A stretch of 21,039 nt of DNA from a virus. Location: positions 1-21,039 of the IMG/VR virus record IMGVR_UViG_3300033571_001790; one strand, written 5' to 3'. The position numbers and the translations under genes are program-made. The notes below the pieces were generated by a model. It saw only the letters and a list, made by a program, of their open reading frames with translations. It was not told the origin of the DNA and did no database searches. This document shows, piece after piece, positions 6,509-20,812 of the stretch (its first letter is position 1; the number at the start of each line of letters is the position of its first letter).

Positions 6509-6895
6509 CTAAGCTCCTGCGCCATACGTTTTTATAGTTTGTGTTTTTACGTATTGTTTTTTCGTGATTGTAGGTGTTCCTTTAACATACAACATTCCCA
6601 CTTCCAATGGTACTTTATTGTCTGAAAGTGAAGGATTCAAATTAGAATTGCTTAATTGTTCAAACACTCTGTAATCCCATTCACCCTCTTCGGTTAAATT
6701 TACCGTTGTACCTTCCGTAATGTTAAATTGATTAAACCTATCAGGGAAACCACTTACATCAGTAAGTATAATATACACTGGATTCCTCTCAACCTTGTTT
6801 GTAAACTCAAATAAAAAATAAGGATTCGTTAAGGTTTGTTTTTCCTTTAAAGTCACTACAAACTTATTGCTTTGTCCTTTATTAATTACTTGCAT
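6509..6895 (-). CDS. Hypothetical small structural protein (128 aa)
   Basis: A beta-rich protein (KFVVTLKEKQTLTNPYFLFEF, then PVYIILTDVSG, then EGEWDYRVFEQ and VPLEVGMLYVKG). I have the impression of a family found beside portal or tail genes of Bacteroidota phages, but know no function. It is the first gene of a transcription unit: an intrinsic terminator lies just upstream (6936-6958), and a CCAA-N10-TTAGTACTT element ends six bases before its ATG. It overlaps the longest possible portal frame by 17 bases. A minor head or neck component is a reasonable guess. Confidence 0.78.
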   Translation of the reverse strand: MQVINKGQSNKFVVTLKEKQTLTNPYFLFEFTNKVERNPVYIILTDVSGFPDRFNQFNITEGTTVNLTEEGEWDYRVFEQLSNSNLNPSLSDNKVPLEVGMLYVKGTPTITKKQYVKTQTIKTYGAGA

Positions 6896-6901
6896 ATTAA
6901 T

Positions 6902-6924
6902 AAGTACTAAATTTTTGAATTTGG
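6902..6924 (-). promoter_or_regulatory. Promoter-like repeat element A (CCAA-N10-TTAGTACTT)
   Basis: On the minus strand CCAA (6924-6921), ten bases, then TTAGTACTT (6910-6902), ending six bases before the ATG at 6895. Element B (18628-18650) has the same arrangement at the same distance from its ATG, with about 28 of 32 bases identical from the start codon through CCAA. The element sits just downstream of a terminator, where a promoter is expected. It does not match the usual Bacteroidota promoter (TAnnTTTG), so a phage-specific factor or an operator or leader role is possible. Confidence 0.55.
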
Positions 6925-6935
6925 CTATATTAAAT

Positions 6936-6958
6936 AAAAAAGGGGCTAAAAAGCCCCC
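6936..6958 (-). terminator. Intrinsic terminator after the tail tube gene
   Basis: Read on the minus strand, GGGGCT (6957-6952, preceded by another G), loop TTTT, AGCCCC (6947-6942), then six T (6941-6936). This is a perfect six-base-pair, GC-rich stem followed by a T-run, a strong rho-independent terminator. It separates the capsid/tail-tube unit from the portal unit. Confidence 0.88.
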
Positions 6959-6981
6959 TTTCTAAACATGACAAACAGAAA

Positions 6982-7497
6982 TTATAGCAAACCAGAAATA
7001 ATACCTGAATTAACAGTGTTTGCAGGATCAGGCTCGTTTACTTGTAAAGTAAGCATTGAACCATTCTTATCACCCATAGCTTTTCCAGTGGATTCGCTAA
7101 CAGTGATGACATCCATACCTCTTGTCTCACCTAATAACCAATAAGTCCCTTCTGTAGACTTAACAATAGCCATTAGTCTATTTTGTACTAAAAGTTTAAT
7201 TATGTTTCTATTCTTTGCACTCATTTTGAAGATGTCAAAAGTAAGTGTTTGATTAGAAAAATAACTTTGATTTTCTTTGCTGAATGTTTGCTCTTGAGTA
7301 AATGTCGCATTCTCAGGTCTTACTTTGTATTCAAAGAATTTTTTACCGGATGCCATAGTGATACCCGAAACAACTCCCGAAGATGCAGTAACCGCTGAAA
7401 CATTTTCAAACTCAGCCAAGTAAATAGTGTCAATCCCCCCTGCAACTCCTTTGCAGTCGAGAGATAATCCTTCAATGATAACGCAATTTGTTGGCAT
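6982..7497 (-). CDS. Putative major tail (tube) protein
   Basis: A 171-residue beta-rich protein that I judge to be the tail tube subunit, the repeating ring around the tape measure. Supporting patterns: N-terminal CVIIEGLSLDCKGVAGGID; a strand and turn with GKKFFEYKVRPENATFTQEQ; a helix with MSAKNRNIIKLLVQNRLMAI; VKSTEGTYWLLGETRGMDV; and TGKAMGDKNGSMLTLQVNE. The 'D/EG.Y.LLGE..G ... TG.A.GD.NG ... LT' order is the pattern I know from tail tube or related proteins of Bacteroidota phages. It lies between two terminators, right after the capsid gene, which would allow its own expression level. No experimental evidence is implied. Confidence 0.72.
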   Translation of the reverse strand: MPTNCVIIEGLSLDCKGVAGGIDTIYLAEFENVSAVTASSGVVSGITMASGKKFFEYKVRPENATFTQEQTFSKENQSYFSNQTLTFDIFKMSAKNRNIIKLLVQNRLMAIVKSTEGTYWLLGETRGMDVITVSESTGKAMGDKNGSMLTLQVNEPDPANTVNSGIISGLL

Positions 7498-7509
7498 AAT
7501 ATTTTATTT

Positions 7510-7533
7510 AAAAAGGCGGCTATTAACCGCCCT
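7510..7533 (-). terminator. Intrinsic terminator after the capsid gene
   Basis: On the minus strand GGCGG (7531-7527), loop TTAATAG, CCGCC (7519-7515), then a T-run at 7514-7510. The stem is five GC pairs. It is moderately strong and lies in the 46-base gap between the capsid stop and the tail tube start. No promoter element is seen between it and the tail tube, so partial read-through is likely. Confidence 0.78.
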
Positions 7534-7543
7534 TAATTATTAA

Positions 7544-8512
7544 TTAGGTGTTTTTGTATTGAGCTACCGCTGTGTAATCGTGAATAGCTACTCCGATTCT
7601 ACCTGCTAAGAAAAACTTAAGCTTTCTAGATGTCTTATCGAAGAACACGTCAAAATCAGATAAGTCATTCTCTTGGTCGAAACCAAACACAAAGTTCTCC
7701 TTATCGAAAGCAATCATACGATCATTAACCGCAGTTGGAAGTACACCAGTTTCAACGATGTCGTTATCGTTATTCAAAGCTTGGATTCCTACAACTTTCA
7801 CGTTTGATCCAGGGTAAATCAATTCCATTACGTTATTCTCACGAGAACCTGGTACATAGTGATACAAGTTATCAACCCAAAGTTTCTGCAATAACACACG
7901 GAAATTTTCCATACCCATTGCTAAAACTGGATTCTTACCTAATACTCTTGAAGGAATCTTTTGGAAGATCATTTCTTCAACAATACCTCTGATAGTAGAA
8001 GTAGTTACATCTGTCTGAGTAGTAGCTGCAACCGCTGTTCCAGCAGTGTCAATCAAAGAAACATACCCATTCATTAACTTCAACCATGTAGAGTTAGTGT
8101 AAGTTGTTTTACCTTGGAACAAAGTACGTGCTACGTTCTTAGCAATATAAGCTAATTTACGATTAACGATTCTGTCTAAAAGTTCAGTTGTTTCAGGTTT
8201 AGCTCCACCTGGCAAATAAGCCTGAGTAAAATAAGCTTCAAGGTCTTTCAAACAAATGTGCTCTTCAACTGAGAAATCAACAGTTGATAAAGTTGTTTGA
8301 GTGATTGAAGTTGTACCTGATGAAGTAGGGTTACAACCATTACCTGATTGAGCAGGAGCAGTTGAATCAAATACTGGTATTTTTGCAGAGCTTTTAATAC
8401 CTGGTACTTTTGTAAGCAAGTCTGTTGAGCTGTCTCCTAATAGAGCAGTCTCAAATATCGGTGCAGTCATTTCATAACTGTAAGCCGATAATGTTCCTAA
8501 TGATAGTGCCAT
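7544..8512 (-). CDS. Major capsid protein (HK97-like fold)
   Basis: A 322-residue protein in the usual capsid place, right after a scaffold-like gene and close to a prohead protease. Features: an N-terminal segment with MALSLGTLSAYSYEM and IFETALLGDSSTDLLTKVPGIK; an early strand with KIPVFDSTAP; a region with TLSTVDFSVEEHICLKDLEAYF (start of the P-domain-like part); LLDRIVNRKLAYIAKNVA (spine-helix-like); VEEMIFQKIPSRVLGKNPVLAMG; and the C-terminal NDRMIAFDKENFVFGFDQEN and FFLAGRIGVAIHDY, typical of A-domain strands. The leader before the ATG is A-rich (AATAAAACAAAATG), good for strong translation in Bacteroidota. Downstream there is a terminator. Confidence 0.88.
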   Translation of the reverse strand: MALSLGTLSAYSYEMTAPIFETALLGDSSTDLLTKVPGIKSSAKIPVFDSTAPAQSGNGCNPTSSGTTSITQTTLSTVDFSVEEHICLKDLEAYFTQAYLPGGAKPETTELLDRIVNRKLAYIAKNVARTLFQGKTTYTNSTWLKLMNGYVSLIDTAGTAVAATTQTDVTTSTIRGIVEEMIFQKIPSRVLGKNPVLAMGMENFRVLLQKLWVDNLYHYVPGSRENNVMELIYPGSNVKVVGIQALNNDNDIVETGVLPTAVNDRMIAFDKENFVFGFDQENDLSDFDVFFDKTSRKLKFFLAGRIGVAIHDYTAVAQYKNT

Positions 8513-8531
8513 TTTGTTTTATTGTTTTAAA

Positions 8532-9221
8532 TTAAAGTCCAAATTGTTTTCTAAAATTCGCCTTCACATCTTCCGCATTTACAAAGTCTTTTTTCTTTGA
8601 GATAGGCTCCACCGAAGGTTCACTTCCTATTTTCTCAATAAGTGCAAATTGCGATTTTTGTGAATCTAATATTTTTTCAAACGAAATAGTTAAATTTCTA
8701 AGTGATTTGTTTGTTTCTTCTGCGGATGTCATTGAACCTTCCATCTTTGCTACGATTTCAGCAATAACAGCCTTAAGGTTTTCAATCTCAGCCTTTACAG
8801 TTTCAAGTTCATTTGCAGGCATCTCAGCAGGCATTTCTTCAACTGGCATTTCTTCTGCCATTGGCTCCTCTGGTGCTTGTTCACTTGCAACTTCGCCTTC
8901 TGGTTGTTCTGGCATTTCAGCTTCAGGAGATTCCATTTCAGTCACGTAACCTGCTGCAACACTTATCTTTACAGGCTTTTCTTCAATCATGATTTCATAT
9001 TCACCATCCATCAAAGGAGCCATAGTTCCATCCGTGTCTACTACGTCAATCTTTGCACCAATACCTAATTCAACATCGGTCTTTACAATAGTTCCATCGC
9101 CTAATTTATAGTCGTTAAACTTTTGTGCAATACCAAACATTGACTTAAACTCCATTGTTGCAAGTTCCAACTCGCTTTTTAAAGCTTCGTATTCTGATTT
9201 GAATTTTTCTCTTAATGACAT
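8532..9221 (-). CDS. Scaffold-like capsid assembly protein
   Basis: A 229-residue protein between the protease and capsid genes. N-terminus 1-34: helix (REKFKSEYEALKSELELATM). Residues 36-97: a small beta domain (YKLGDGTIVKTDVELGIGAK, DTDGTMAPLMDGEYEIMI, VKISVAAGYVTEM) with the 'DGT ... G.YE' pattern. Residues ~98-137: a Pro/Glu/Met-rich acidic linker with near repeats (PEEPMAEEMPVEEMPAEMPA). Residues 138-195: a coiled coil (ETVKAEIENLKAVIAEIVAK). The C-terminus is basic (KKKDFVNAEDVKANFRKQFG), possibly the capsid-binding tip. The order beta domain, linker, coiled coil, basic tail fits scaffolding proteins cut by a prohead protease. Element C lies just upstream. Confidence 0.75.
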   Translation of the reverse strand: MSLREKFKSEYEALKSELELATMEFKSMFGIAQKFNDYKLGDGTIVKTDVELGIGAKIDVVDTDGTMAPLMDGEYEIMIEEKPVKISVAAGYVTEMESPEAEMPEQPEGEVASEQAPEEPMAEEMPVEEMPAEMPANELETVKAEIENLKAVIAEIVAKMEGSMTSAEETNKSLRNLTISFEKILDSQKSQFALIEKIGSEPSVEPISKKKDFVNAEDVKANFRKQFGL

Positions 9222-9238
9222 AATAAGTGTTTAATAAA

Positions 9239-9261
9239 AAGTACTAATTATTTGATATTGG
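9239..9261 (-). promoter_or_regulatory. Promoter-like repeat element C
   Basis: CCAA (9261-9258), ten bases, TTAGTACTT (9247-9239) on the minus strand, with the same 10-base spacing as elements A and B. It overlaps the last codons and stop of the protease gene and ends 17 bases before the scaffold ATG (9221), farther than in A and B. No terminator precedes it, so it would add transcripts for scaffold and capsid. Part of the match lies in coding sequence and could be chance, but the exact spacing and the shared AAGTACTAA core argue against that. Confidence 0.45.
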
Positions 9262-10285
9262 CTAATTTAGAACGTAGTGATTTGAAACGCTCCATTAAAG
9301 CTTCAATTTGTGTGGCATCTTTATCTACTATAAATTGATGTTCAAATATACCCTCGACACTAAACCCTCTAATTTCGCCATCCTTTACCTTATTCCAAAC
9401 CTCTGGATTTTCAACTTTATAGAATCCAAACCATGAGCCATCTGGCAAACTTTCATATCCCTTTGGAGGATTCACACCTAACTTACGATTAATGATAAAA
9501 TCATTGAACATAAACACACCTTCTACCTTTTGATTAGGATCATGCATTAAGTTTACGTTCTTATTGTTTTGTTGGTAGTGGTATTTCAAACATATTTGTT
9601 CAATTGTTTTAGAATCAAACACTACGTAATATTCCCCCAACTTTTCATCCTGCCTATAAATTGGAAGGTCTGCAATCATTAATGGTCCAGCAATAACCCT
9701 CTTTTCTTCATCGTGGATTTGCATTGAAGATTTATGTTCTTCTTTCCAAACAGAATAACAAATGGCTGCTGCTTGTTCTTGGTCTTTAACTTCATCTACT
9801 AAAGTTGAAATACATCTTGGAATAAACTCACTTTCACGCTCACCCTTTGAAGGCTTAACAAAATCCTGCCTATCTATTTGTTCTAACTTTCTTTGCGCCC
9901 ATGCAATCCCTTCGTTTCCACCCCAAGCAAGCCACATTAACGCTCCGCAATCTTCTTTAGGATCACCTTTTGAGTTTTCTCTATGCCTTTCAAATGCAGC
10001 CATTCTCGCAATAGTATCACGACTAATATTCTCACCTTTTGCTAATTGGTTTGCACGTTGCCACCCCACGGAAGTTCCGCACTTTAAATCATGTTTTTCC
10101 CTCAAGTCAATTGCTCTTTGTGCGTTTTCCTTTGCTGCTTTTGGATAGTCATTGTAACTCTCAAATTTATGAGAATTAAAAGCAACCCAGTTTTTCATAA
10201 TTGCAGGATCATCAACAAGTGCCACGTATTCAACACCGCTTGTCTCTTCATCGTTAATTAATAGTCTGTAAATAGGTAAGTTCAT
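9248..10285 (-). CDS. XkdF-like prohead protease with inserted domains
   Basis: A 345-residue protein. The outer parts match the XkdF-type putative phage serine protease: residues 1-36 (PIYRLLINDEETSGVEYVAL, VDDPAIMKNWVAF) and 190-320 (EKRVIAGPLMIADLPIYRQ, YYVVFDSKTIEQI, NLMHD with His248, PPKGYESLPDGSWFGFYKV, RGFSVEG with Ser309). His248 and Ser309 are the likely catalytic pair, as in U35-like prohead proteases. Between them sit two extra modules. One is a domain at about 43-139 (KCGTSVGWQRANQLAKGENI, TIARMAAFERHRE, LMWLAWGGNEGIAWA). The other is a short one at 147-185 (KGERESEFIPRCISTLVDEV, QEQAAAICYSVWKEE). It lies upstream of scaffold and capsid, its likely substrates. Function of the inserts is unknown to me. 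Confidence 0.8.
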   Translation of the reverse strand: MNLPIYRLLINDEETSGVEYVALVDDPAIMKNWVAFNSHKFESYNDYPKAAKENAQRAIDLREKHDLKCGTSVGWQRANQLAKGENISRDTIARMAAFERHRENSKGDPKEDCGALMWLAWGGNEGIAWAQRKLEQIDRQDFVKPSKGERESEFIPRCISTLVDEVKDQEQAAAICYSVWKEEHKSSMQIHDEEKRVIAGPLMIADLPIYRQDEKLGEYYVVFDSKTIEQICLKYHYQQNNKNVNLMHDPNQKVEGVFMFNDFIINRKLGVNPPKGYESLPDGSWFGFYKVENPEVWNKVKDGEIRGFSVEGIFEHQFIVDKDATQIEALMERFKSLRSKLANIK

Positions 10286-10288
10286 TGT

Positions 10289-12442
10289 TTAATTTATTTT
10301 AGATCGTTCTTCAATTCTGTTTACTTGTTGGTTTACATTTGCCATTTCTGTTTGCACCACTACTGCCTTCAATGGTTGAGGTGCTTGCGTTCCTTGGTTT
10401 TGTAGATTCTCAATGTTAGTGGTAGTATTACCAACTGTCTGACCCATTGCAGGCGCACCCGCTCCACCTCCACCACCTGGTACACTAACGTCTCCACCTC
10501 CACCACCTGGAGCTTTATTTAGTAACGCTTTAGCCTTTGCCACATTTGCTGCTACCGTTGCAAATCCACTTGCCAACCCTGCTGCTAAAACAGATGCATA
10601 CACGATAGGAGCGGCAGGACCAGGAGCAGCCTTAGACGCTTCTTTTGCGTTTCTAAATGCCGCAGGAATCATGGTGCTTATTGCCTGACCTGAATCAATG
10701 GCTAATTGTGCAAGTGCAAAAGCTTTTTGTGCTTTAGCTGCCTTGTCGCTATCCTTTATAAATAAGCTTGTAATTGTTTGAAAGTCATTTAATCCGTTTT
10801 GCCTTAAATAACTCAAAGCTTCCTGCATTGCTTTCTCACCTTCTGTTTGTTTATTTTGAAGTTCCAACATTTTAGCATTGTGTTCTTCTTCCAACTTTTG
10901 CAGATCGGCATTTGACAATTCTTTGTTAGACTTTAATAAATCATACCTACGTATCTCAAAGTCTATTTCATCCTGTAATGATAATTCACGTCTGTTTTTC
11001 TTTTCAAGTTCCTGCGCATCAATTAATGTAAGTCCTTGCTTTATTCTTTCATCCTCTTTTTTCTTTTCTTCCTCTGCTAATTTCTTTGCATCTTCATCCG
11101 CTTTCTTTTGTCTTTCTTCTTCGTACTTAGTTTCTATTGCGTTCCAATCATTGTTGTATTTTTCACGCAAAGCTAATAAAGCTTGTGACTTTGTTTCTTC
11201 ACTTGCTTTTGATTGTCTAATAGATTCCTGTTCAGCTTCGTATTGATTTTTTAACCTTTGTAAGTCTTGTACTTCTTGGTCTTTTATATTATCAGTCCTT
11301 AACTCTTTAAGCTTACGTTGTAATTCCGCTTCACTTTCTAATTTAGCTTTGGCACTTTCTTTGGCTTTGTCTGATGCCGCCTTGTCAATTGCTTGTATGG
11401 ATAACTCAAGTCCTGCACGATCATTCTTTAATTTTTCTAAACCTTTTAAACTTTCTTTCCTTGTTTCCTCTGCTTTTTTTGCTTCCGCTTCTGGATCAAA
11501 CAATAAACTTGCGCCCTTATCTAATAAGTTACTAAAACCTTCAGCTAATCCAAAGTTCTTACCAATAGCTTTACCAACTAAATCAATATTTTGTAATATT
11601 AATCTTAAAGGTGTAGTAAGAAAATCCAAAATACCTTTTAAAATATCGTGATTCCTTTTAGCTGCTTCAATTTGTGCTTTTGATGTAATATCGTTTTGCT
11701 CAATCTGTGCTTCTGTTGCTTTTATTACCGCATCTGTTTGTGACATCTTTAATTTAAGAATGTCTTTTTCAGATTTGCCTTGCAGCTTTAAAATATTTTC
11801 CTGACCTCCAATGGCGTCAAGTTTGCCTTTTTCTGCGTCTAAGTTAGCCTGTGTTTGTTCGTTTAACTTTTGTTGTTCTTCACTTACACCACTAATCGCT
11901 GCGGATATTTCATCCCAATAAGCTACTACCGTACCCAAAGCTACAACCAACGCACCAACACCAGAAGCTATTAAAGCTCCCCTCATTGTTTTAAATGCAT
12001 TAACTGCGGATCTTCCAAAGTCTGAAACTAATCCTTTTAAATTGCTAAATGCATCCCCAATTCCCTCAAGTTCTTTTAACCCTTGAGCCAAAGCCATTGC
12101 ACTCTGTACTTTTAGTAAAGCTTTTTGTACATTCTCACTCTCACTACCAAACAAAGCCATAGCACCTTGAGCGGCTGCAAATCCCCCGGCAATGGATGAG
12201 CCTAAATTAGCCAAAGCCTGAAATTTACCCGCTCCTGTTTTGGATGCAATGGCTTCGTTCAAATCTTCAATCTCATCCTTTACATCCGCTAATTGCTTAA
12301 GCTTTTTTCTGTATTCATCCGTTCCTACAGCTACATTGTCAAGTTCCTTTTGGATGTCTTTAAATTCCTGTTTTAATGTACGTAAACTTTTAGCTCCTTC
12401 GCCTACGTTTACGCCTATATTTATATTTGCTTGTTCTGCCAT
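10289..12442 (-). CDS. Tail tape measure protein
   Basis: A 717-residue protein. Tape measure proteins set tail length and travel into the host with the DNA. Visible: an N-terminal coiled coil (about 16-66, GAKSLRTLKQEFKDIQKELD, KQLADVKDEIEDLN), a Gly/Ala-rich stretch (77-98, GSSIAGGFAAAQGAMALF), a strongly hydrophobic segment at about 155-176 (GALIASGVGALVVALGTVVA), long charged coiled coils at about 320-540 (Lys/Glu/Gln-rich) and a hydrophobic Ala-rich part near 580-640. The C-terminus has two Gly runs (PGGGGGD, PGGGGGAG). By the common rule of about 0.15 nm per residue the tail would be roughly 105-110 nm long (an estimate). It lies after, not before, the tail-tip genes, which is unusual. 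Confidence 0.88.
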   Translation of the reverse strand: MAEQANINIGVNVGEGAKSLRTLKQEFKDIQKELDNVAVGTDEYRKKLKQLADVKDEIEDLNEAIASKTGAGKFQALANLGSSIAGGFAAAQGAMALFGSESENVQKALLKVQSAMALAQGLKELEGIGDAFSNLKGLVSDFGRSAVNAFKTMRGALIASGVGALVVALGTVVAYWDEISAAISGVSEEQQKLNEQTQANLDAEKGKLDAIGGQENILKLQGKSEKDILKLKMSQTDAVIKATEAQIEQNDITSKAQIEAAKRNHDILKGILDFLTTPLRLILQNIDLVGKAIGKNFGLAEGFSNLLDKGASLLFDPEAEAKKAEETRKESLKGLEKLKNDRAGLELSIQAIDKAASDKAKESAKAKLESEAELQRKLKELRTDNIKDQEVQDLQRLKNQYEAEQESIRQSKASEETKSQALLALREKYNNDWNAIETKYEEERQKKADEDAKKLAEEEKKKEDERIKQGLTLIDAQELEKKNRRELSLQDEIDFEIRRYDLLKSNKELSNADLQKLEEEHNAKMLELQNKQTEGEKAMQEALSYLRQNGLNDFQTITSLFIKDSDKAAKAQKAFALAQLAIDSGQAISTMIPAAFRNAKEASKAAPGPAAPIVYASVLAAGLASGFATVAANVAKAKALLNKAPGGGGGDVSVPGGGGGAGAPAMGQTVGNTTTNIENLQNQGTQAPQPLKAVVVQTEMANVNQQVNRIEERSKIN

Positions 12443-12443
12443 T

Positions 12444-13178
12444 TTACATTAATTTTTCTACTACCATTATTGATCCTGCCTTCAAAGTTATTGCGGCATT
12501 TACCTCACTTCTAAATTGCAATTGTGCTGTGCCTGTGTTTGCTCCCGTGTTTATTAATCCAGTTACATAAACAGGAATGATTTGATTGTTTGCAGGTGTT
12601 GCACTTGTTACTGCATAGCTTGTTGCATCCACTACTTGAGATCCTCCCGTGATTGTTCCTGCTGTTCCTAATTGGTGATAAAATTGTAACCATACATTTG
12701 TCACCGCACTACTAACATCAAAAGCAAATCCGCATCCTGTTGTTGAATTAGCTCCACTTATTGCTCCGTAAACGTGTATTCTATAACTTGAATTTGCAGC
12801 GTAAGTAAATACAAATCCACTTATACTATTCATGTTTTGATTAGCTCCCGTTGTTAAGTCATTTGCTAACTTAACATCCAAAGTGTAATTATCTAACTTG
12901 CCATTCCACGTTGTTTTTTCGGAATCAGTTACAAATCTGTGAGTACTATCTTCTGTCACTTTAGTTGATGCGACATCGTTAATCTTTGCATTGGTAACCG
13001 CCCCATTGTCAATAGTCCAAGTCGCACCTGTATTACTTACAGTTATGTCACCTTTGTCCCCATCTTCAATACCTGCACCTCCACCCGAAGCATTTGCCCA
13101 TTCAAGTTTGCCCTCTGTGCTTACACGAAGAAATTTACCGCTATTATTTATTTTTGAAGGTATAAATTTGTAACTCAT
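12444..13178 (-). CDS. Tail fibre-like protein, 244 aa
   Basis: N-terminal part (1-90) has a tail-fibre pattern: [59 protein letters not shown] and [15 protein letters not shown], which I recognise from repeats in phage fibres ('[22 protein letters not shown]'). The C-terminal ~130 residues form a Ser/Thr/Asn-rich beta domain ([53 protein letters not shown]), resembling jelly-roll or TNF/C1q-like trimeric tips. It lies between the 952-residue tail protein and the tape measure, so it is probably attached to the tail tip. The protein ends one base before the tape measure ATG. Confidence 0.72.
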
Positions 13179-13182
13179 TTTT

Positions 13183-16041
13183 TTAAACTATATGATAATT
13201 TGAACCATCTGAAACAATTGTAACCGAATCGTATTGCGTGTTTATTACATAGGTTGCCGCACCATCAATGGTCTGTGCTGAGTAACCATCAATGGTAACC
13301 GTGTTTACACTTGCATCTACTTTTTTAATGTAGAATAACTTACCCATTTCATCTTTAGGACTTGCCACAAATCCACTATCAGGCAAAGTAATTGTAATAT
13401 TTCCGGCTGTTGCATTAACCAACAAAACAGTGTCACTCCATGAAGCGGTAAAATTACCAGTGATTGACTTAACACGTACCGCAGATCCTGTGTCTTTAAT
13501 TGCAAGTGAATTTATATAAACCGCTCCGCTTTGAGTAATCGTACTTCCACTTGACCCTAAAACTGTGGTATATTCTACACCTCCGGCAACAGTCACACCA
13601 CTTGAGCCTAAAACACTTATTCCTTTTGTACCTCCGGCAATATAAATATCCGAGCCACTTACCTTTGCACCTAACGTGCTATCGTGAATAATTACATTCT
13701 CACCTAAACTCTCACCTCCAAATACATTACCTGTTCTTTGTGTATTATACCAACCTTTGACCTCATCTTCCAAAACACCCTGCCCTACATTAGTAGTGTT
13801 TGTTGGTGTGAAAGTTGGATATTCAATAAGCTTAATAAACTCACACTTAGTAACCGACATCTGATTAGGGTTATAATCAAATATCCTGTTTAGTCTCCAA
13901 TACTCACCCTCAAAATAGTAGAAATTTTTAAAGTCTAATTTTGCAATATCTAAAGGTGTTAAGTAAAAATAACCTGTAAATATTTTACTATTTATGTCGC
14001 TTATCTCTTGAATAAATTTCTTCCAATACTTATTGAATAAGTTATTGTTTGTGTAGTTCTGCGTAGTGTAAAATACCTCAATAGGCGCACCAAAGTTGAT
14101 ATCCAATGTAGGCAACAATGGATCATCTAAATGACCTACATACGGATAAGTAGTGTAATTAGTAGTTCCTGAACTTGCCACATACGAATATGGATTTGTT
14201 GTAGTTTTAACACCACCATAATAAAGAATCCGAATATTACCCTGCTTAGGTTTTGGCTGACCATTGTTATCGACTATAAATATTTTAGGAATAATACGAT
14301 CAATACCAATATAATCTGCCAAAGGAGTAGGTGAAAAAATAAGCTCGTTTTTAATCTCACTTTTGAGAAAATCGTTTTCAATTTCATAATCTTTGTAGCC
14401 GTATGTTTCGTTAAATTTCTTTTTGTAAAGTTCATTATAATAATCATTGTCATCCTTGTAAGTAAAAACATACGTCTTACTTTCAAGATCACCCATTGGT
14501 TTAGTTTCGTACGCTTTAGAGTAATCTAACTTATATGACCAATCTAAAGTAGTATTTCCACTTGATGCAAAATAGTCATCCCTTGGCTCAATAACTAATT
14601 TATTCGTGATCGTTTCATCCTGGTCTACGTAAAGGTTAAACATCTTGAATAAAGATGACATAAACTCACTTTGCTTTATGTTCTCAGGTAAGACGTTGTT
14701 CATCTCTAAATTGTCACCCTCTGTCACTTGAGTATCTGCTAACTTAGCTTCAAAATAACAATTAGTGTCTAAATTAATATTACACGATCCGCCATTGGTG
14801 TAAGGACTTAACAATCCGCTTGGTGAGGTATAATTGGCTGTGTAATAATCACAATATACTTGAGTTCCTGCCGGTAAATTAACCACACATTGAATAGCAA
14901 AGTTAGTAGTGGCTGTTGTTGATCCTGTGACTACCGTACCCGGCTGAACAATGGTAACCGAATTTGCAACCTGCGCTCCTGCAAAAATAATCGGTACAGT
15001 ATTGTAAACTTGGTTAGCTGACCTTATCTGTAAAGTACCTAAGTTAATATTTGCAATCGTATCGTTATTAACTGTATTGTTATGCTTTACATTTATACTT
15101 ACAAAGAAAGTTAGTTTGTAATTAGTCGAATAAGGACTTGTAAATTTATAAGTTGATGTATTATAATTGTTTCCAGGGTCATTGTTTGGAGCTGTAGTGT
15201 CATTGTCAAAGGCAATAGTGGTTAAGGCATTTGCAGCTCCCGGTGTTCTGGTAATTGTAATTATACTATTGTTTGAAGCCCTAAATTCACGATTCTGTAT
15301 TTGTGTCTGACTAAGCTTTAAAGTAGTTCCTGTAAACGGAATTACTAAACGCTTAAAAAATGTGCTATTAAAAAAGTTACTGCTATACTGAAATCCTGCC
15401 TGTGCAAATATCTTGTCAATAATGGTTTTAACATAAACAGAAGGATAAAAGTGATTAACATTATAAGTAGAACCATTGGTATGACCATAATCAATAAGAG
15501 GATAGAGATAACCCTCGCCTGTAGGATTTCCACTCGAAAAATTGACATAATTACTTCCGTTTTTAACTATTGATGTATTCCAACTATTAACTTGATTTTG
15601 TCTTGTGTATGTATGGTCGTATTCTGACAAGTCAATTTCTGACAACTTACCCTCTCCTATCGTAGTGAATATATTTGCAAGGTTGCCATAAAAAGATAAT
15701 TCATACTCTACCTTCCCATCCGTGTTTACAATATTGTCAAGTTTTGCAAACCCTTTGAATACCTCATTCCCATCTTGCAATACTAAAACATCTGCCTTTA
15801 AATTAGGATTAAAGTTAGGTGTAAAGTTAGTACCACCTGAGCTTGTTAAATTCACCCCTATATCCCAAATGTGAGAAAATAAAACATTGTTATTTGCAGT
15901 ACCTGGTAAAACTACAGTCTTACTAAAATTAGTATTCCTTTTCTGTGGTTCTCTAATATCCGCAATGGCATAATTCAACGGAATACTTATGTCATCACTT
16001 AAATCTACTTCGGTATTATTTATAAATATTTCCGTTACCAT
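13183..16041 (-). CDS. Large tail-tip / baseplate protein with fibre-like C-terminus (952 aa)
   Basis: The largest gene in the window. Residues ~1-150: [40 protein letters not shown] and [11 protein letters not shown], a beta-rich N-terminus like the first domain of tail-associated (Tal/gp27-type) proteins of Bacteroidota phages. The middle contains two long beta stretches and a baseplate-like region around [20 protein letters not shown] and [19 protein letters not shown]. The C-terminal ~190 residues change character: a left-handed-helix-like repeat ([37 protein letters not shown]), then a fibre-tip domain ([56 protein letters not shown]). It overlaps the 414-residue gene by seven bases. No peptidase motif is seen. 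Confidence 0.7.
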
Positions 16042-17279
16042 TTCTGTACTTTTGAATTAAATGAAGGCATGATCTCAAAGTCATAGTTGAATAATCCATC
16101 CCTTGCATGTGTTTTCTTAGTGTAAGAATCTGTTTTTAAGTTTACAGGAATGCAAAGATTGTTATTCATATCTACCACCCTAACATCCTTGCTTCTAAAC
16201 AAACCCTCAATCCATGCACTCTCACCTTCCGTTACCCATCCGCTCCAAACTTTTATTGAGTACTCAATGTCATTATTAAATTGTGCGCTACTTCTTTCTG
16301 TAGGACTAAATGCATAGTCTGTAGTATTCCAAACATAATTTGACTTCTTAAACATTGACCGCTTGTAATTATACATTTCCTGGAATCCACCGTAACAATT
16401 TATAGTGTCATACCCTCCCCATTGATTGAGCCAAGTCAAACGTAAATAATTTAACTTAGTACATTGACTATCTAATATAAATGTCTTAGATTCACTCGTG
16501 GCACTTAAAAAAGCATCGCAAGTATAAACAGTATAACTTACTGTGTTTGAATCAATAACAGGCTGTGTTCCTACGCTTAAATCAGAGATATTCAAATCTG
16601 CCGGCCCTACAAAAGTTCTGCATCTTTTCTTTGCTTTTGTGTTGGAAGGGTATTGATCGTTTTTAAATGTAAATGTGTTTACGTTTCCAAATACATCGGT
16701 TACGTCTATACCTATAAATTCAGTATCTACGGTATTATCTTGGTAAAAATCTAAAGCAAAACAATCATTCTCTCCTACTCTGAAGTTATTACCTTCTGTT
16801 AAAAATTTAAAGTTTGTATCATTTATATATTGAGCCTGGTACTGAAAATAATTGAATTTAGGATTGTAAGTTCCTTTGTCAATTGTAAATTCATCTAAGG
16901 CTGCACTTATTGCATATTTGTTTAATGAGCTGCTCAAATTCTGGTAAGTTACCACACCAGATGCAGGACCGTATTCCTCACCCCATCTAACATCGTATTC
17001 TACAATAGAGTTTATGCAAGTAACTACACCACTCGATCCTGGCTGCCATACATCTAAGCTAAAAAAATCCTGAATGACACCTTGCAAATCAAAAGCTGCA
17101 TAGCCATTGGAAGGATGCGCAGGTTTTTTAATACGTACATAATCAGGTGAATTGTTTACATAAACGTCTGCTACATACTTAAAGTTAGGCTGCGTGTTAT
17201 TTGTACTATCTAAAGTATAAATAATTTTATTATAACCTAAAGCAGGACTTTGTGCTGTGTTATATATTGTTAGTGCCAT
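16035..17279 (-). CDS. Tail-tip structural protein, possibly distal-tail (Dit)-like (414 aa)
   Basis: A beta-rich protein starting MALTIYNTAQSPALGYNKII, with strands such as YVADVYVNNSPDYVRIKKP, FDLQGVIQDFFSLDVWQPG, DIEYSIKVWSGWVTEGESAW and a C-terminal FNYDFEIMPSF. Several Trp and Cys residues are spread through it. I recall such proteins, paired with a following larger tail protein, at the tail tip of Bacteroidota phages, where a Dit-like hub would be expected. The pairing with the 952-residue gene (seven-base overlap) supports a joint role. A Dit identity is inferred, not shown. Confidence 0.58.
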   Translation of the reverse strand: MALTIYNTAQSPALGYNKIIYTLDSTNNTQPNFKYVADVYVNNSPDYVRIKKPAHPSNGYAAFDLQGVIQDFFSLDVWQPGSSGVVTCINSIVEYDVRWGEEYGPASGVVTYQNLSSSLNKYAISAALDEFTIDKGTYNPKFNYFQYQAQYINDTNFKFLTEGNNFRVGENDCFALDFYQDNTVDTEFIGIDVTDVFGNVNTFTFKNDQYPSNTKAKKRCRTFVGPADLNISDLSVGTQPVIDSNTVSYTVYTCDAFLSATSESKTFILDSQCTKLNYLRLTWLNQWGGYDTINCYGGFQEMYNYKRSMFKKSNYVWNTTDYAFSPTERSSAQFNNDIEYSIKVWSGWVTEGESAWIEGLFRSKDVRVVDMNNNLCIPVNLKTDSYTKKTHARDGLFNYDFEIMPSFNSKVQKW

Positions 17280-17871
17280 TGATATTTTCTACTTCGTTTT
17301 TTATTACTACTTCGACATCCTTTTTTAATGCCTTGCTAATTTCTGAGCTAATAAATTTGTTTAGCTTATCGTTATTCTCACCGATCACATCTGTTAGCCA
17401 TTTATTACCTTTAGTTCCTTTTTTAAGAATCTTTGTGGCTATTGCATAACTTAGTGACCTTGCCTTTTTTTTATCGCTTGCAAAAGCTCCAAATGAATCT
17501 TGTTTACCAGGACTAATAACCCATCTATAAATAGCAGGCTGTAATTTATTTCTTTTGTCTTTATTAAATCCTTCCGCCTTACGTCCTTTGTCTAATTCAT
17601 CCCCATATTTATTGTAAAATATTTGAACGCTTATCCTTTCCTTTGTGGCTTCGTTAGGCTTGGCTATTATAGACTGACTTAGTGATCCTGTGGCATTAGA
17701 TTCCTTCCTAACAAGTGAATCCTGCATCTCAGCCATAACACTACCAACTGCCCTAACTAAAATATCTAACGTATTTGTAAATGATAAATAGTCTGCTTGT
17801 TTCTTTTTGATGTTCTCTAAAGATGCCAAACCTCCTTTATATTTACTTGCGTTACTAATATTTAGTGCCAC
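17260..17871 (-). CDS. HK97 gp10-like tail completion protein, GTG start
   Basis: A 203-residue protein starting with GTG at 17871, 17 bases inside the preceding frame; no ATG occurs before residue 47, so GTG is the probable start. The sequence has a helix (GGLASLENIKKKQADYLSFT), a region with GSVMAEMQDSLVRKESNATG followed by SLSQSIIAKP, and RISVQIFYNKYGDELDKGRK, which fit the HK97 gp10-like pattern ('L..S......... Y...ld.G..'). The C-terminus is Lys-rich and partly helical (SSEISKALKKDVEVVIKNEV). Members of that family close the tail or join it to the head. Its position after the chaperone pair is consistent. Confidence 0.65.
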   Translation of the reverse strand: MALNISNASKYKGGLASLENIKKKQADYLSFTNTLDILVRAVGSVMAEMQDSLVRKESNATGSLSQSIIAKPNEATKERISVQIFYNKYGDELDKGRKAEGFNKDKRNKLQPAIYRWVISPGKQDSFGAFASDKKKARSLSYAIATKILKKGTKGNKWLTDVIGENNDKLNKFISSEISKALKKDVEVVIKNEVENINGTNNI

Positions 17872-18133
17872 GATTCATCTTTTTTCTAAGTTCCTCTAAA
17901 TGCTTTTCCTTGTCCTTATAAAATGCTAACGTATTCAAAAACTCAATTACTCCCATGTTTAAAAAGTAATCCCATTTACTACGATCTGAATTACTCAAAG
18001 AATCTAAAACATTGTACCATCCCCATGCTCCCATTCCTGACTTCGCTCCCTCTCGTATTTCTCCTTCAATTGGCTCATTGTCGATGTCAAAAAGTCTGGG
18101 ATAGCTTCTACTAATTTGATTAATAGAGTGCAA
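17855..18133 (-). CDS. Second-frame (T-like) extension of the tail assembly chaperone, made by frameshifting
   Basis: A 92-codon frame in the -1 frame relative to the preceding gene. The only near-start is TTG at 18133, and it coincides with the end of a T9 run. There is no ATG in this frame before residue 33, and the frame is open upstream through the slippery run. The sequence is well behaved (IDNEPIEGEIREGAKSGMGA, WGWYNVLDSLSNSDRSKWDY, GVIEFLNTLAFYKDKEKHLE) and helical, with a Trp-containing 'GW...I/L..L' pattern I recall from the C-terminal part of such proteins in Bacteroidota phages. A -1 slip on T TTT TTT (18139-18133) would give a 255-residue G-T type fusion. It overlaps the gp10-like gene by 17 bases. 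Confidence 0.75.
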   Translation of the reverse strand: MHSINQISRSYPRLFDIDNEPIEGEIREGAKSGMGAWGWYNVLDSLSNSDRSKWDYFLNMGVIEFLNTLAFYKDKEKHLEELRKKMNRGTKY

Positions 18134-18621
18134 AAAAAAAGTGTCATCGGATAAATCTGCTGAACATTTGCATGGTTTAGTATCTCAACCTTTGCTTCAA
18201 ATGTCAAATCTATCTTGCGTTTAAATATCCACCACCCTTTGTAAGGTGTTAAAAATAAAGCAATTAACTTTGGTGTATTGATTACAATATTTTCTTTTTC
18301 CTTTGTTAACTCAGTCACACTGATATACTCCCCTGCTGTTATTTTGCGGATGTCTAAACGTGGAACCCATAAATAACCACCCAATCTAAATGACTTTGGG
18401 TTGGTAGGCTTTGGAAAGTCATGCACCCATGAAATATCCTTTTGAGCTTGCACCCATGTATCTAATGTCATTGATTCCACCTGATCAATAGTCAAACCAC
18501 TAAGTATTGAAAATATACGTATTGACTTGTCAATAGCTTCAATACTTTCATCTTGAGCGATGTCATATAAGTCTATAAACTGCTTAATGTTTACGTCCTT
18601 CCAACTTTGTGCTATTTTCAT
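18004..18621 (-). CDS. Putative tail assembly chaperone (G-like product)
   Basis: A 205-residue protein, first gene after a terminator and promoter-like element B. N-terminus: SWKDVNIKQFIDLYDIAQDE and KSIRIFSILSGLTIDQVESM, helical, with the 'W.dv....f.dl' and 'il.glt.dqve.m' pattern that I recall from tail assembly chaperone-type proteins of Bacteroidota phages. Middle: LWVPRLDIRKITAGEYISVT and LIALFLTPYKGWW. Near residue 160 the reading passes YPMTLFF, which the DNA encodes with nine T in a row, and the -1 frame then opens into a second conserved-looking segment. In zero frame the protein goes on for 42 codons (CTLLIKLVEAIPDFLTSTMS). Lambda-like phages make a short G and a longer GT product by -1 frameshifting in the same way. 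Confidence 0.7.
   Translation of the reverse strand: MKIAQSWKDVNIKQFIDLYDIAQDESIEAIDKSIRIFSILSGLTIDQVESMTLDTWVQAQKDISWVHDFPKPTNPKSFRLGGYLWVPRLDIRKITAGEYISVTELTKEKENIVINTPKLIALFLTPYKGWWIFKRKIDLTFEAKVEILNHANVQQIYPMTLFFCTLLIKLVEAIPDFLTSTMSQLKEKYERERSQEWEHGDGTMF
18132..18140 (-). other. Probable -1 frameshift site: T9 slippery run
   Basis: On the minus strand nine T in a row, read in zero frame as CTT TTT TTT TGC. The heptamer T TTT TTT (18139-18133) allows tandem P- and A-site tRNA slippage by -1, after which the next codon is TTG at 18133 and the frame stays open to 17855. No strong downstream hairpin is obvious. Transcriptional slippage (a T10 transcript) would produce the same fusion. Confidence 0.72.
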
Positions 18622-18627
18622 ATAATT

Positions 18628-18650
18628 AAGTACTAAATTTTTAAAATTGG
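18628..18650 (-). promoter_or_regulatory. Promoter-like repeat element B
   Basis: CCAA (18650-18647), ten bases, TTAGTACTT (18636-18628) on the minus strand, ending six bases before the ATG at 18621. It is nearly identical to element A, including the leader to the ATG, and like A it comes after a terminator whose tail (TTATTTAATA) is shared too. It is the likely start of the tail transcription unit. Confidence 0.55.
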
Positions 18651-18669: not shown

Positions 18670-18696
18670 AAAAAAAGGCAGCCTTACGGGGCTACC
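18670..18696 (-). terminator. Intrinsic terminator after the large terminase gene
   Basis: On the minus strand GGTAGCC (18696-18690), loop CCGTAA, GGCTGCC (18683-18677), then at least six T from 18676. The stem is seven pairs with one G-T wobble. It lies in the 115-base gap between the terminase stop and the next gene and closes the packaging unit. Confidence 0.86.
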
Positions 18697-18736
18697 ATTT
18701 AAACCTTCAACCAAATCAATCAGTCAAATATACAAA

Positions 18737-19942: not shown

Positions 19943-20297
19943 ATTCCGCTGTGAATTTCATGTTTCCTTTAATCTCCAAATTGTGCTGCTCAATGTACCC
20001 TCTTTTCTTTGCTTTACACTTCAAGTAGAAAATAGTAGATAATGGATTACCTTTAGCTATTTGTTTATGTAATTGTGTTTCTGCAAAGTCTAAAGCTACA
20101 TTTTCAATCTCTTTGACTTTAGCCTTATAATCTTTATCCTTCCGCATCCATTCATAGTGCGTTCTACGTGGCACGCCTGACATCCTACTTGCGCTTGTCA
20201 CCACTCCTAAAGATTTCTCTAAAGCTTCTAACATGTTTTCTTTTCCTTGTACAGTTCCCCAAGGATCATCTACCATTCTTTTAATTTCTTTACTCAT
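19878..20297 (-). CDS. terS: Terminase small subunit
   Basis: A 139-residue DNA-recognition subunit. A helix-turn-helix is visible in LGVVTSASRMSGVPRRTHYE (about 30-49) followed by WMRKDKDYKAKVKEIENVAL, the usual Phage TerS-type pattern. Then comes a helical stretch with ETQLHKQIAKGNPLSTIFYL, a feature of small terminases ('GN...I.FYLK'). The C-terminus is probably the part that contacts the large subunit. It overlaps the ParB-like gene by four bases (ATGA) and the large-subunit gene by 65 bases. Confidence 0.9.
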   Translation of the reverse strand: MSKEIKRMVDDPWGTVQGKENMLEALEKSLGVVTSASRMSGVPRRTHYEWMRKDKDYKAKVKEIENVALDFAETQLHKQIAKGNPLSTIFYLKCKAKKRGYIEQHNLEIKGNMKFTAEFGKSDTIYPTLESGEDTLLDQ

Positions 20298-20812
20298 AAA
20301 TTTATACTTAAATAAGCTCCATCAAATTCTCTGTCTAATATTTCTTGTATTTCATTTTCAGCCTTTTGCAAGTCCTCTGGTGACTTAAATGTGATCTTCA
20401 TTGTAGGCTCTTTTGTTGGTTCAGCTTCAATTTCTATTTCAGGCTCTTCAAAAGGTATATCCATACCCCACTCTTTTAAATCAAGTGCCTCCCATTCGTT
20501 TGCAAGTTCATCCCAATCCCAATCCCCAAACCCGACGTTATCCTTTATTATAAATTCCTTTTGTTGTTCGGGTGTGAGATAAGATGCATCAATGATAGGT
20601 ACTTCGATTAACCCTGCTTCAATACATGCCTTAAGTCTCATGTTGCCAGCAAGTGCCTCCATATTTTCATTCACCACAATAGGACGTATTTTTAACATCT
20701 GTGGAAAGTCCATAATAGACTGAACAAGTTTTTTAAACTTTGCATCCTTTATTATACGTGGGTTACGTGGGTTTGGTTTTACCTCACCTATTTTAACTAT
20801 TCTATAACTCAT
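20294..20812 (-). CDS. ParB-like nuclease-domain protein
   Basis: A 172-residue protein with an N-terminal ParB/Srx-type domain: IVKIGEVKPNPRNPRIIKD (about 5-23), FPQMLKIRPIVVNENMEALA (36-55), GNMRLKACIEAGLIEVPIID (56-75), the NPRNPR and GNMRLKAC motifs being typical. It then has LTPEQQKEFIIKDNVGFGDW and an acidic linker (EEPEIEIEAEPTKEPTMKI). The C-terminus (ITFKSPEDLQKAENEIQEIL) is a short helical tail. Such proteins often stand next to terminase genes in phages of Bacteroidota. Whether it acts in packaging, DNA modification or nicking is not known. No methyltransferase is fused to it. Confidence 0.85.
   Translation of the reverse strand: MSYRIVKIGEVKPNPRNPRIIKDAKFKKLVQSIMDFPQMLKIRPIVVNENMEALAGNMRLKACIEAGLIEVPIIDASYLTPEQQKEFIIKDNVGFGDWDWDELANEWEALDLKEWGMDIPFEEPEIEIEAEPTKEPTMKITFKSPEDLQKAENEIQEILDREFDGAYLSINL

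Follow-up and report, generated by a model that had tools for sequence, protein, structure and literature searches.

A short word that changes in step between clades is a probable late-promoter element of uncultured Bacteroidota phages

The late promoters of phage T4 (TATAAATA) consist of a single -10-like element served by a small phage sigma factor, gp55, two traits in which they resemble the system proposed below; they also require gp33 and the gp45 clamp. In phiEco32, a podophage of E. coli, the early genes depend on host sigma70, and the phage sigma factor gp36 reads a single-element late/middle promoter, tAATGTAtA, that stands before the late units and directs transcription to start 6-8 nt downstream (PMC8948821). 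Salmonella phage 7-11 has late promoters at genome positions similar to those of phiEco32, with a changed consensus and a diverged sigma factor, gp47 (15% identity) (PMC8948821). For phages of Bacteroidota, a limited search of the literature found neither a late promoter nor a phage sigma factor. On the host side, the -7 box of Flavobacterium johnsoniae occupies positions -12 to -5, is followed by 4-5 nt to the transcript start, and virtually never has a G at -10 (PMC6847099). Here we analyse a short word found before a few virus-assembly genes, which, judging from sequence comparison, is probably a start signal for late transcription.

The window, i.e. the whole stretch of DNA analysed, is a 21,039-base virus record of an uncultured Bacteroidota phage. 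All of its structural genes, on the minus strand, are those for terminase, gene A, tail proteins, tape measure, protease, gene C, likely major capsid, portal and amidase-like gene. The initial annotation had reported three copies of CCAA-N10-TTAGTACTT; we recovered each as an exact minus-strand match, at 18628-18650 (site A), 9239-9261 (site C) and 6902-6924 (site B), and the window contains no further exact TTAGTACTT (Table 1). Between TTAGTACTT and the start codon there are 6 nt at gene A, 17 nt at gene C and 6 nt at gene B; the six-base gap to the ATG and the match of 28 out of 32 bases through the leader, both noted earlier for sites A and B, are correct. Gene C, by its position and acidic composition, probably encodes a scaffold or assembly protein, and its product has no match in PHROG. 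As an internal control, the core motif is absent from the leader AATTTAAAACAATAAAACAAA of the likely major capsid gene. Nor is it present downstream of the hairpin next to this gene, which may act as a partial terminator and thereby reduce the expression of gene 6982-7497.

Table 1 Coordinates of the motif copies, genes and terminators. Positions refer to the window unless a contig is named.
Feature	Position	Strand	Remarks
Site A core TTAGTACTT	18628..18636	minus	Exact match; in relatives conserved or replaced in step
Site A predicted transcript start	~18623	minus	2 nt before ATG; TAGTACTT proposed as -12..-5 promoter element
Site A CCAA	18647..18650	minus	Auxiliary at best
Intrinsic terminator following terL and immediately preceding site A	18677..18696	minus	-12.4 kcal, z -2.0, T7 tail
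Gene A, 205 aa; follows site A and is the first gene past terL	18004..18621	minus	Orthologs in ~70 loci
Site C core TTAGTACTT	9239..9247	minus	Starts immediately past the stop codon of upstream gene 9248-10285
Gene C, 229 aa	8532..9221	minus	Upstream of likely major capsid gene; motif upstream conserved
Likely major capsid gene, 322 aa	7544..8512	minus	Weak PHROG virion-structural match
Hairpin with short T run, between likely major capsid gene and gene 6982-7497	~7514..7533 (region 7505-7545)	minus	-13.2 kcal; coordinates approximate
Strong intrinsic terminator immediately preceding site B	6935..6964	minus	-18.9 kcal, z -4.4
Site B CCAA	6921..6924	minus	Auxiliary at best; CCAT in sister clade
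Site B core TTAGTACTT	6902..6910	minus	Predicted transcript start ~6897, 2 nt before ATG
Gene B, 128 aa (MQVINKGQ..), upstream of portal gene	6509..6895	minus	
Sigma-like gene, 170 aa	G001 13345-13854	minus	Flanked by NinG-like gene and glycosyltransferase-like genes

The minus strand also encodes a ParB-like domain protein (20294-20812) immediately ahead of the small terminase gene; phage DNA methyltransferase families match this protein as well, with their N-terminal part. In the close relative G001, whose TerL is 96.8% identical to that of the window, an N6-adenine/N4-cytosine methyltransferase is fused to a ParB-like part (L107:17646-18842).

The full motif CCAA-N10-TTAGTACTT, seen three times, would be expected 0.002-0.003 times in the window under Markov models of orders 1-3, and TTAGTACTT alone 0.4-0.7 times. 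The latter is the sole 9-mer to occur in at least three of the 25 upstream segments of 35 nt each. In random sets of segments, some 9-mer was nonetheless common to at least three of them in 165 of 2000 draws; such a repeat is thus not very rare, the window alone is only moderately convincing, and a comparison with relatives had to decide. Unrelated viral contigs with the exact spaced motif exist as well, and their sequence contexts led us to judge these as chance occurrences.

Relatives were retrieved from IMG/VR via the capsid, the terminase and a sigma-like protein discussed below, and about 100 related phage contigs were compared. Throughout the window's own clade (e.g. L005, L006, L008, L012, L014 and L016), TTAGTACTT is retained at each of these sites that a contig covers. 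In a sister clade (L007, L009, L010, L011 and L017-L020; TerL 88% identical), all three orthologous sites carry ATAGTTCTT: the identical two changes are found at each of them and the remaining seven core positions are unchanged, with the 40 bases upstream of the three sites agreeing between the two clades at 26, 20 and 13 positions only. In a distant clade (TerL ~67%), GGTACTT precedes the gene A and gene B orthologs as well as three other genes (small terminase, tape measure and MANALRL); at the gene C ortholog, several contigs have GGTACTT and others GTACTT. Finally, the word is AGCACTT in a fourth clade (L022-L025, L195 and L204). It stands at two gene starts in L195, and in L025 and L204 the site A copy is the only one at a gene-start position. 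The word therefore changes in step at separate sites, which points to a shared trans-acting reader.

In an unbiased count of 7-mers up to 30 nt upstream of starts, GGTACTT came top in each of the six distant genomes, where 4-6 copies were seen against ~0.04 expected. TAGTTCT headed the ranking of G002, and TAGTACT came second in that of G001, for which one gene start had been manually adjusted to match the window. A motif search in relatives had been proposed by the initial annotation; its outcome is that the core or a variant of it is enriched at gene starts, orthologous sites included. The same short element precedes several late gene units within one phage and is conserved at the orthologous late genes of relatives. 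A chance repeat in an AT-rich genome, which could draw on the ~8% of random draws that yield three-segment 9-mers, is hardly credible in view of this conservation, of the in-step change across clades and of the top-ranked enrichment in independent genomes.

L196 and L202 (TerL ~66-67%) show no recognisable core word before the gene following terL. In a relative further removed, terL is followed by TTATACTTgatgtATG (L220:7650-7680), perhaps a fifth variant of the word. In L113, L120, L078 and others, GGTACTT is found 0-3 nt before the start of the MIPQ/MTEE/MNEE gene, in a stretch that also encodes conserved residues and that reads GGTATTT in G011 (L122); this occurrence is probably coding and not a promoter, a distance of 0-3 nt being too close to the start. 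Among cultured relatives, neither the capsid protein nor the sigma-like protein has a match, and TerL reaches ~30% identity at most. A search for the host returned one short Chitinophagaceae MAG contig (L190, TerL 66%), possibly a phage contig binned with that MAG.

As far as sequence can tell, the comparison shows the working core to be TAGTACTT, and neither the palindrome nor the CCAA spacing: since the word changes across clades, the AGTACT palindrome and the exact distance to CCAA are not conserved features. A CCAA exactly ten bases from the core, as originally described, is confined to the window's own clade; in the sister clade, site B shows CCAT and site C an 11-base gap, CCAA at the latter belonging to a conserved coding stretch, and no CCAA element was seen at the sites listed for the distant clade. 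We consequently rejected CCAA as an obligate second box. TTACCAATTT at site A is retained in the sister clade despite the divergence of much upstream sequence. On the other hand, TTATTTAATA, which had been pointed out in the terminator tails of sites A and B, is not retained in relatives. The palindrome, too, is present in the window's clade and lost elsewhere, becoming AGTTCT in the sister clade and AGCACT in the fourth. The inverted repeat AGTACT had suggested an operator for a phage repressor or regulator; because its symmetry is lost in related clades, with position and neighbouring bases kept, we rejected the palindromic operator and consider it very improbable.

The terminators that the initial annotation placed before sites A and B are confirmed, with the stability values given in Table 1. 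As both sites directly follow them, a new transcript would have to start in the short gap before the gene, unless the terminators are read through. From T-run to ATG, this gap measures ~40 nt in G001 and sister contigs, and ~17 nt, GGTACTT included, at gene B of G009 and G011. A host-type TATATTTG box lies right past the terL stop (18725-18732, minus strand), upstream of the 18677-18696 terminator, and a similar box is found in the same place after terL in G001 and G002; box and terminator together could yield a short RNA of ~45-55 nt.

At sites A and B, 6 nt separate the end of TAGTACTT from the ATG, and placing this element in the -7 frame of F. johnsoniae would put the transcript start 1-2 nt before the ATG. 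The six-base leader had been taken as an argument against a -7 box. That argument fails, given the spacing of 4-5 nt in F. johnsoniae (PMC6847099) and the host-type TAnnTTTG boxes that, in related phages, precede the start codons of other genes by 4-5 nt. Leaderless mRNAs make up 5.5% in F. psychrophilum (PMC9723704).

That the core is not the host TAnnTTTG box, as first noted, is upheld. It shares with the Bacteroidota sigma A promoter (TTTG / TAHHTTTG) the -12..-5 position as well as T-12, A-11 and T-6, but the TAHHTTTG consensus (PMC6847099) is broken in both TAGTACTT and TAGTTCTT by a G at -10, a C at -7 and a T at -5; the window's clade also has A for T at -8. With G at -10 virtually absent from F. 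johnsoniae promoters, TAGTACTT is not a host sigma A box, and a host sigma A promoter was rejected on consensus at the three sites. GGTACTT resembles the ECF -35 sequence GGAACTT; this assignment was rejected on geometry, as the start would fall inside the coding sequence. A scan for E. coli-type sigma70 promoters gave 61 matches versus 75 expected by shuffling.

In most clades, the distance from the core to the ATG is 5-8 nt at sites A and B, and the core also occurs in tight gaps inside operons, as might a translation signal in the mRNA leader of a few late genes, bound by the ribosome in a non-Shine-Dalgarno manner or by a phage protein. We find this improbable. Across clades, the gap between motif and start codon ranges over 2-21 nt, unlike the fixed short spacing of a Shine-Dalgarno-like signal, and at the same terminase gene it is 11 nt in some relatives versus 20-21 nt in others. 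The likely major capsid gene, presumably heavily translated, is without the word; the sites follow terminators; no RNA structure is predicted at them; and in flavobacteria it is adenines at -3, -6 and -12/-13 that tune initiation, not such a word (PMC6847099). Of the three readings offered by the initial annotation, the phage-specific late promoter is thus best supported, and both the operator and the leader read at translation are weakened.

The initial annotation had also proposed looking for a phage-encoded sigma factor elsewhere in the genome. A candidate was found in relatives: a putatively ECF-like protein of 160-174 aa, encoded outside the window and present in members of all four variant clades; the entire distant clade has orthologs, and others occur in the sister clade and in L025. 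Against Pfam, it gives nothing convincing. Its weak sequence matches are to SigW over nearly the full length (E 1.1) and to Sigma70_r2 (0.15), and among PHROG families to 1740 (3 of 8 members, best 0.007) and 1025 (0.015). We built two AlphaFold2 models, of lead sequences 31% identical to each other, with mid-confidence pLDDT of 70 and 80. For both, sigma factors, predominantly of the ECF type, fill almost all of the first ~20 Foldseek ranks; the best of these matches has E 0.05 and probability 0.95, and none falls below 0.001. The structural alignments cover sigma2 over residues 1-82 and sigma4 over residues ~88-168, with Z near 7 and under 8. An ECF-like sigma factor is our best guess for this protein because of the consistency of the matches, its size, domain order and genome position, the scores alone being insufficient.

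Up to 70 nt upstream of the sigma-like gene, TAHHTTTG is found in 28 of 30 contexts, many of them interrelated and partly coding, against a background of 0.5-0.9 per kb. No consistent -35 element is visible at the late sites, though the protein has a predicted sigma4-like domain. In G001, a cluster of genes resembling glycosyltransferases and FkbM-type methyltransferases, named by eye, separates the sigma-like gene from the terminase genes (L107:8267-13367), and such genes recur at the same place in the distant clade.

The motif evidence does not name the reader. The same late promoters might be read by host sigma A together with a different phage activator, or by an alternative sigma factor of the host; F. 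psychrophilum has 7 ECF sigma factors (PMC9723704). We consider this unlikely, since the core departs from TAHHTTTG at near-invariant positions (G -10, C -7, T -5), the motif occupies the sigma-reading position and not an upstream one where an activator would bind, and concerted change between close phage clades better fits a reader borne by the phage. It is likely, in our assessment, that TTAGTACTT is the -10-like (Bacteroidota -7) element of three late promoters read via a phage ECF-like sigma factor. Transcription from these sites and its link to the sigma-like protein are what we infer; four variants in four lineages are too few to prove co-evolution of the word with this protein.

According to this late-promoter model, the early genes, including that of the sigma factor, would probably be read by host sigma A from TAnnTTTG boxes. 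Host RNA polymerase carrying the phage-encoded ECF-like sigma would then recognise TAGTACTT at -12 to -5, the promoter consisting of the -10-like element alone with little or no fixed -35 element, and transcription would start 4-6 nt downstream. The sigma protein would in this way activate the unit downstream of terL, the scaffold/capsid unit and the portal/tail unit, so that transcription resumes past the internal terminators. The predicted late mRNAs are near-leaderless, with leaders of ~0-2 nt for genes A and B, and of ~12-13 nt for gene C.

By analogy, the proposed system is like that of phiEco32 gp36 in its single element, its phage sigma and its early genes left to the host sigma factor. 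It differs in that gp36 is without region 4 homology, whereas the protein described here has a predicted sigma4-like domain; the host phylum and the promoter sequence are also different, and near-leaderless starts are predicted here. Phage 7-11 gp47 sets a precedent for a sigma factor and its promoter changing together. Its promoter, however, is bipartite (GTAAtg-16-aCTA), and it is two phages that have diverged in that case, as against four clades in the present one. More tentatively, and with slightly more doubt than confidence, we suggest a new family of Bacteroidota phages with an undescribed ECF-like sigma factor, a single -7-position element, essentially leaderless main late mRNAs, and a sigma factor and word co-diverging across at least four clades.

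If true, the model would provide a predicted late switch for a widespread group of uncultured phages, and four natural sigma/promoter pairs for the study of promoter specificity. It would also offer test cases of leaderless translation in a phylum without Shine-Dalgarno sites and, possibly, an orthogonal transcription tool for Bacteroidota.
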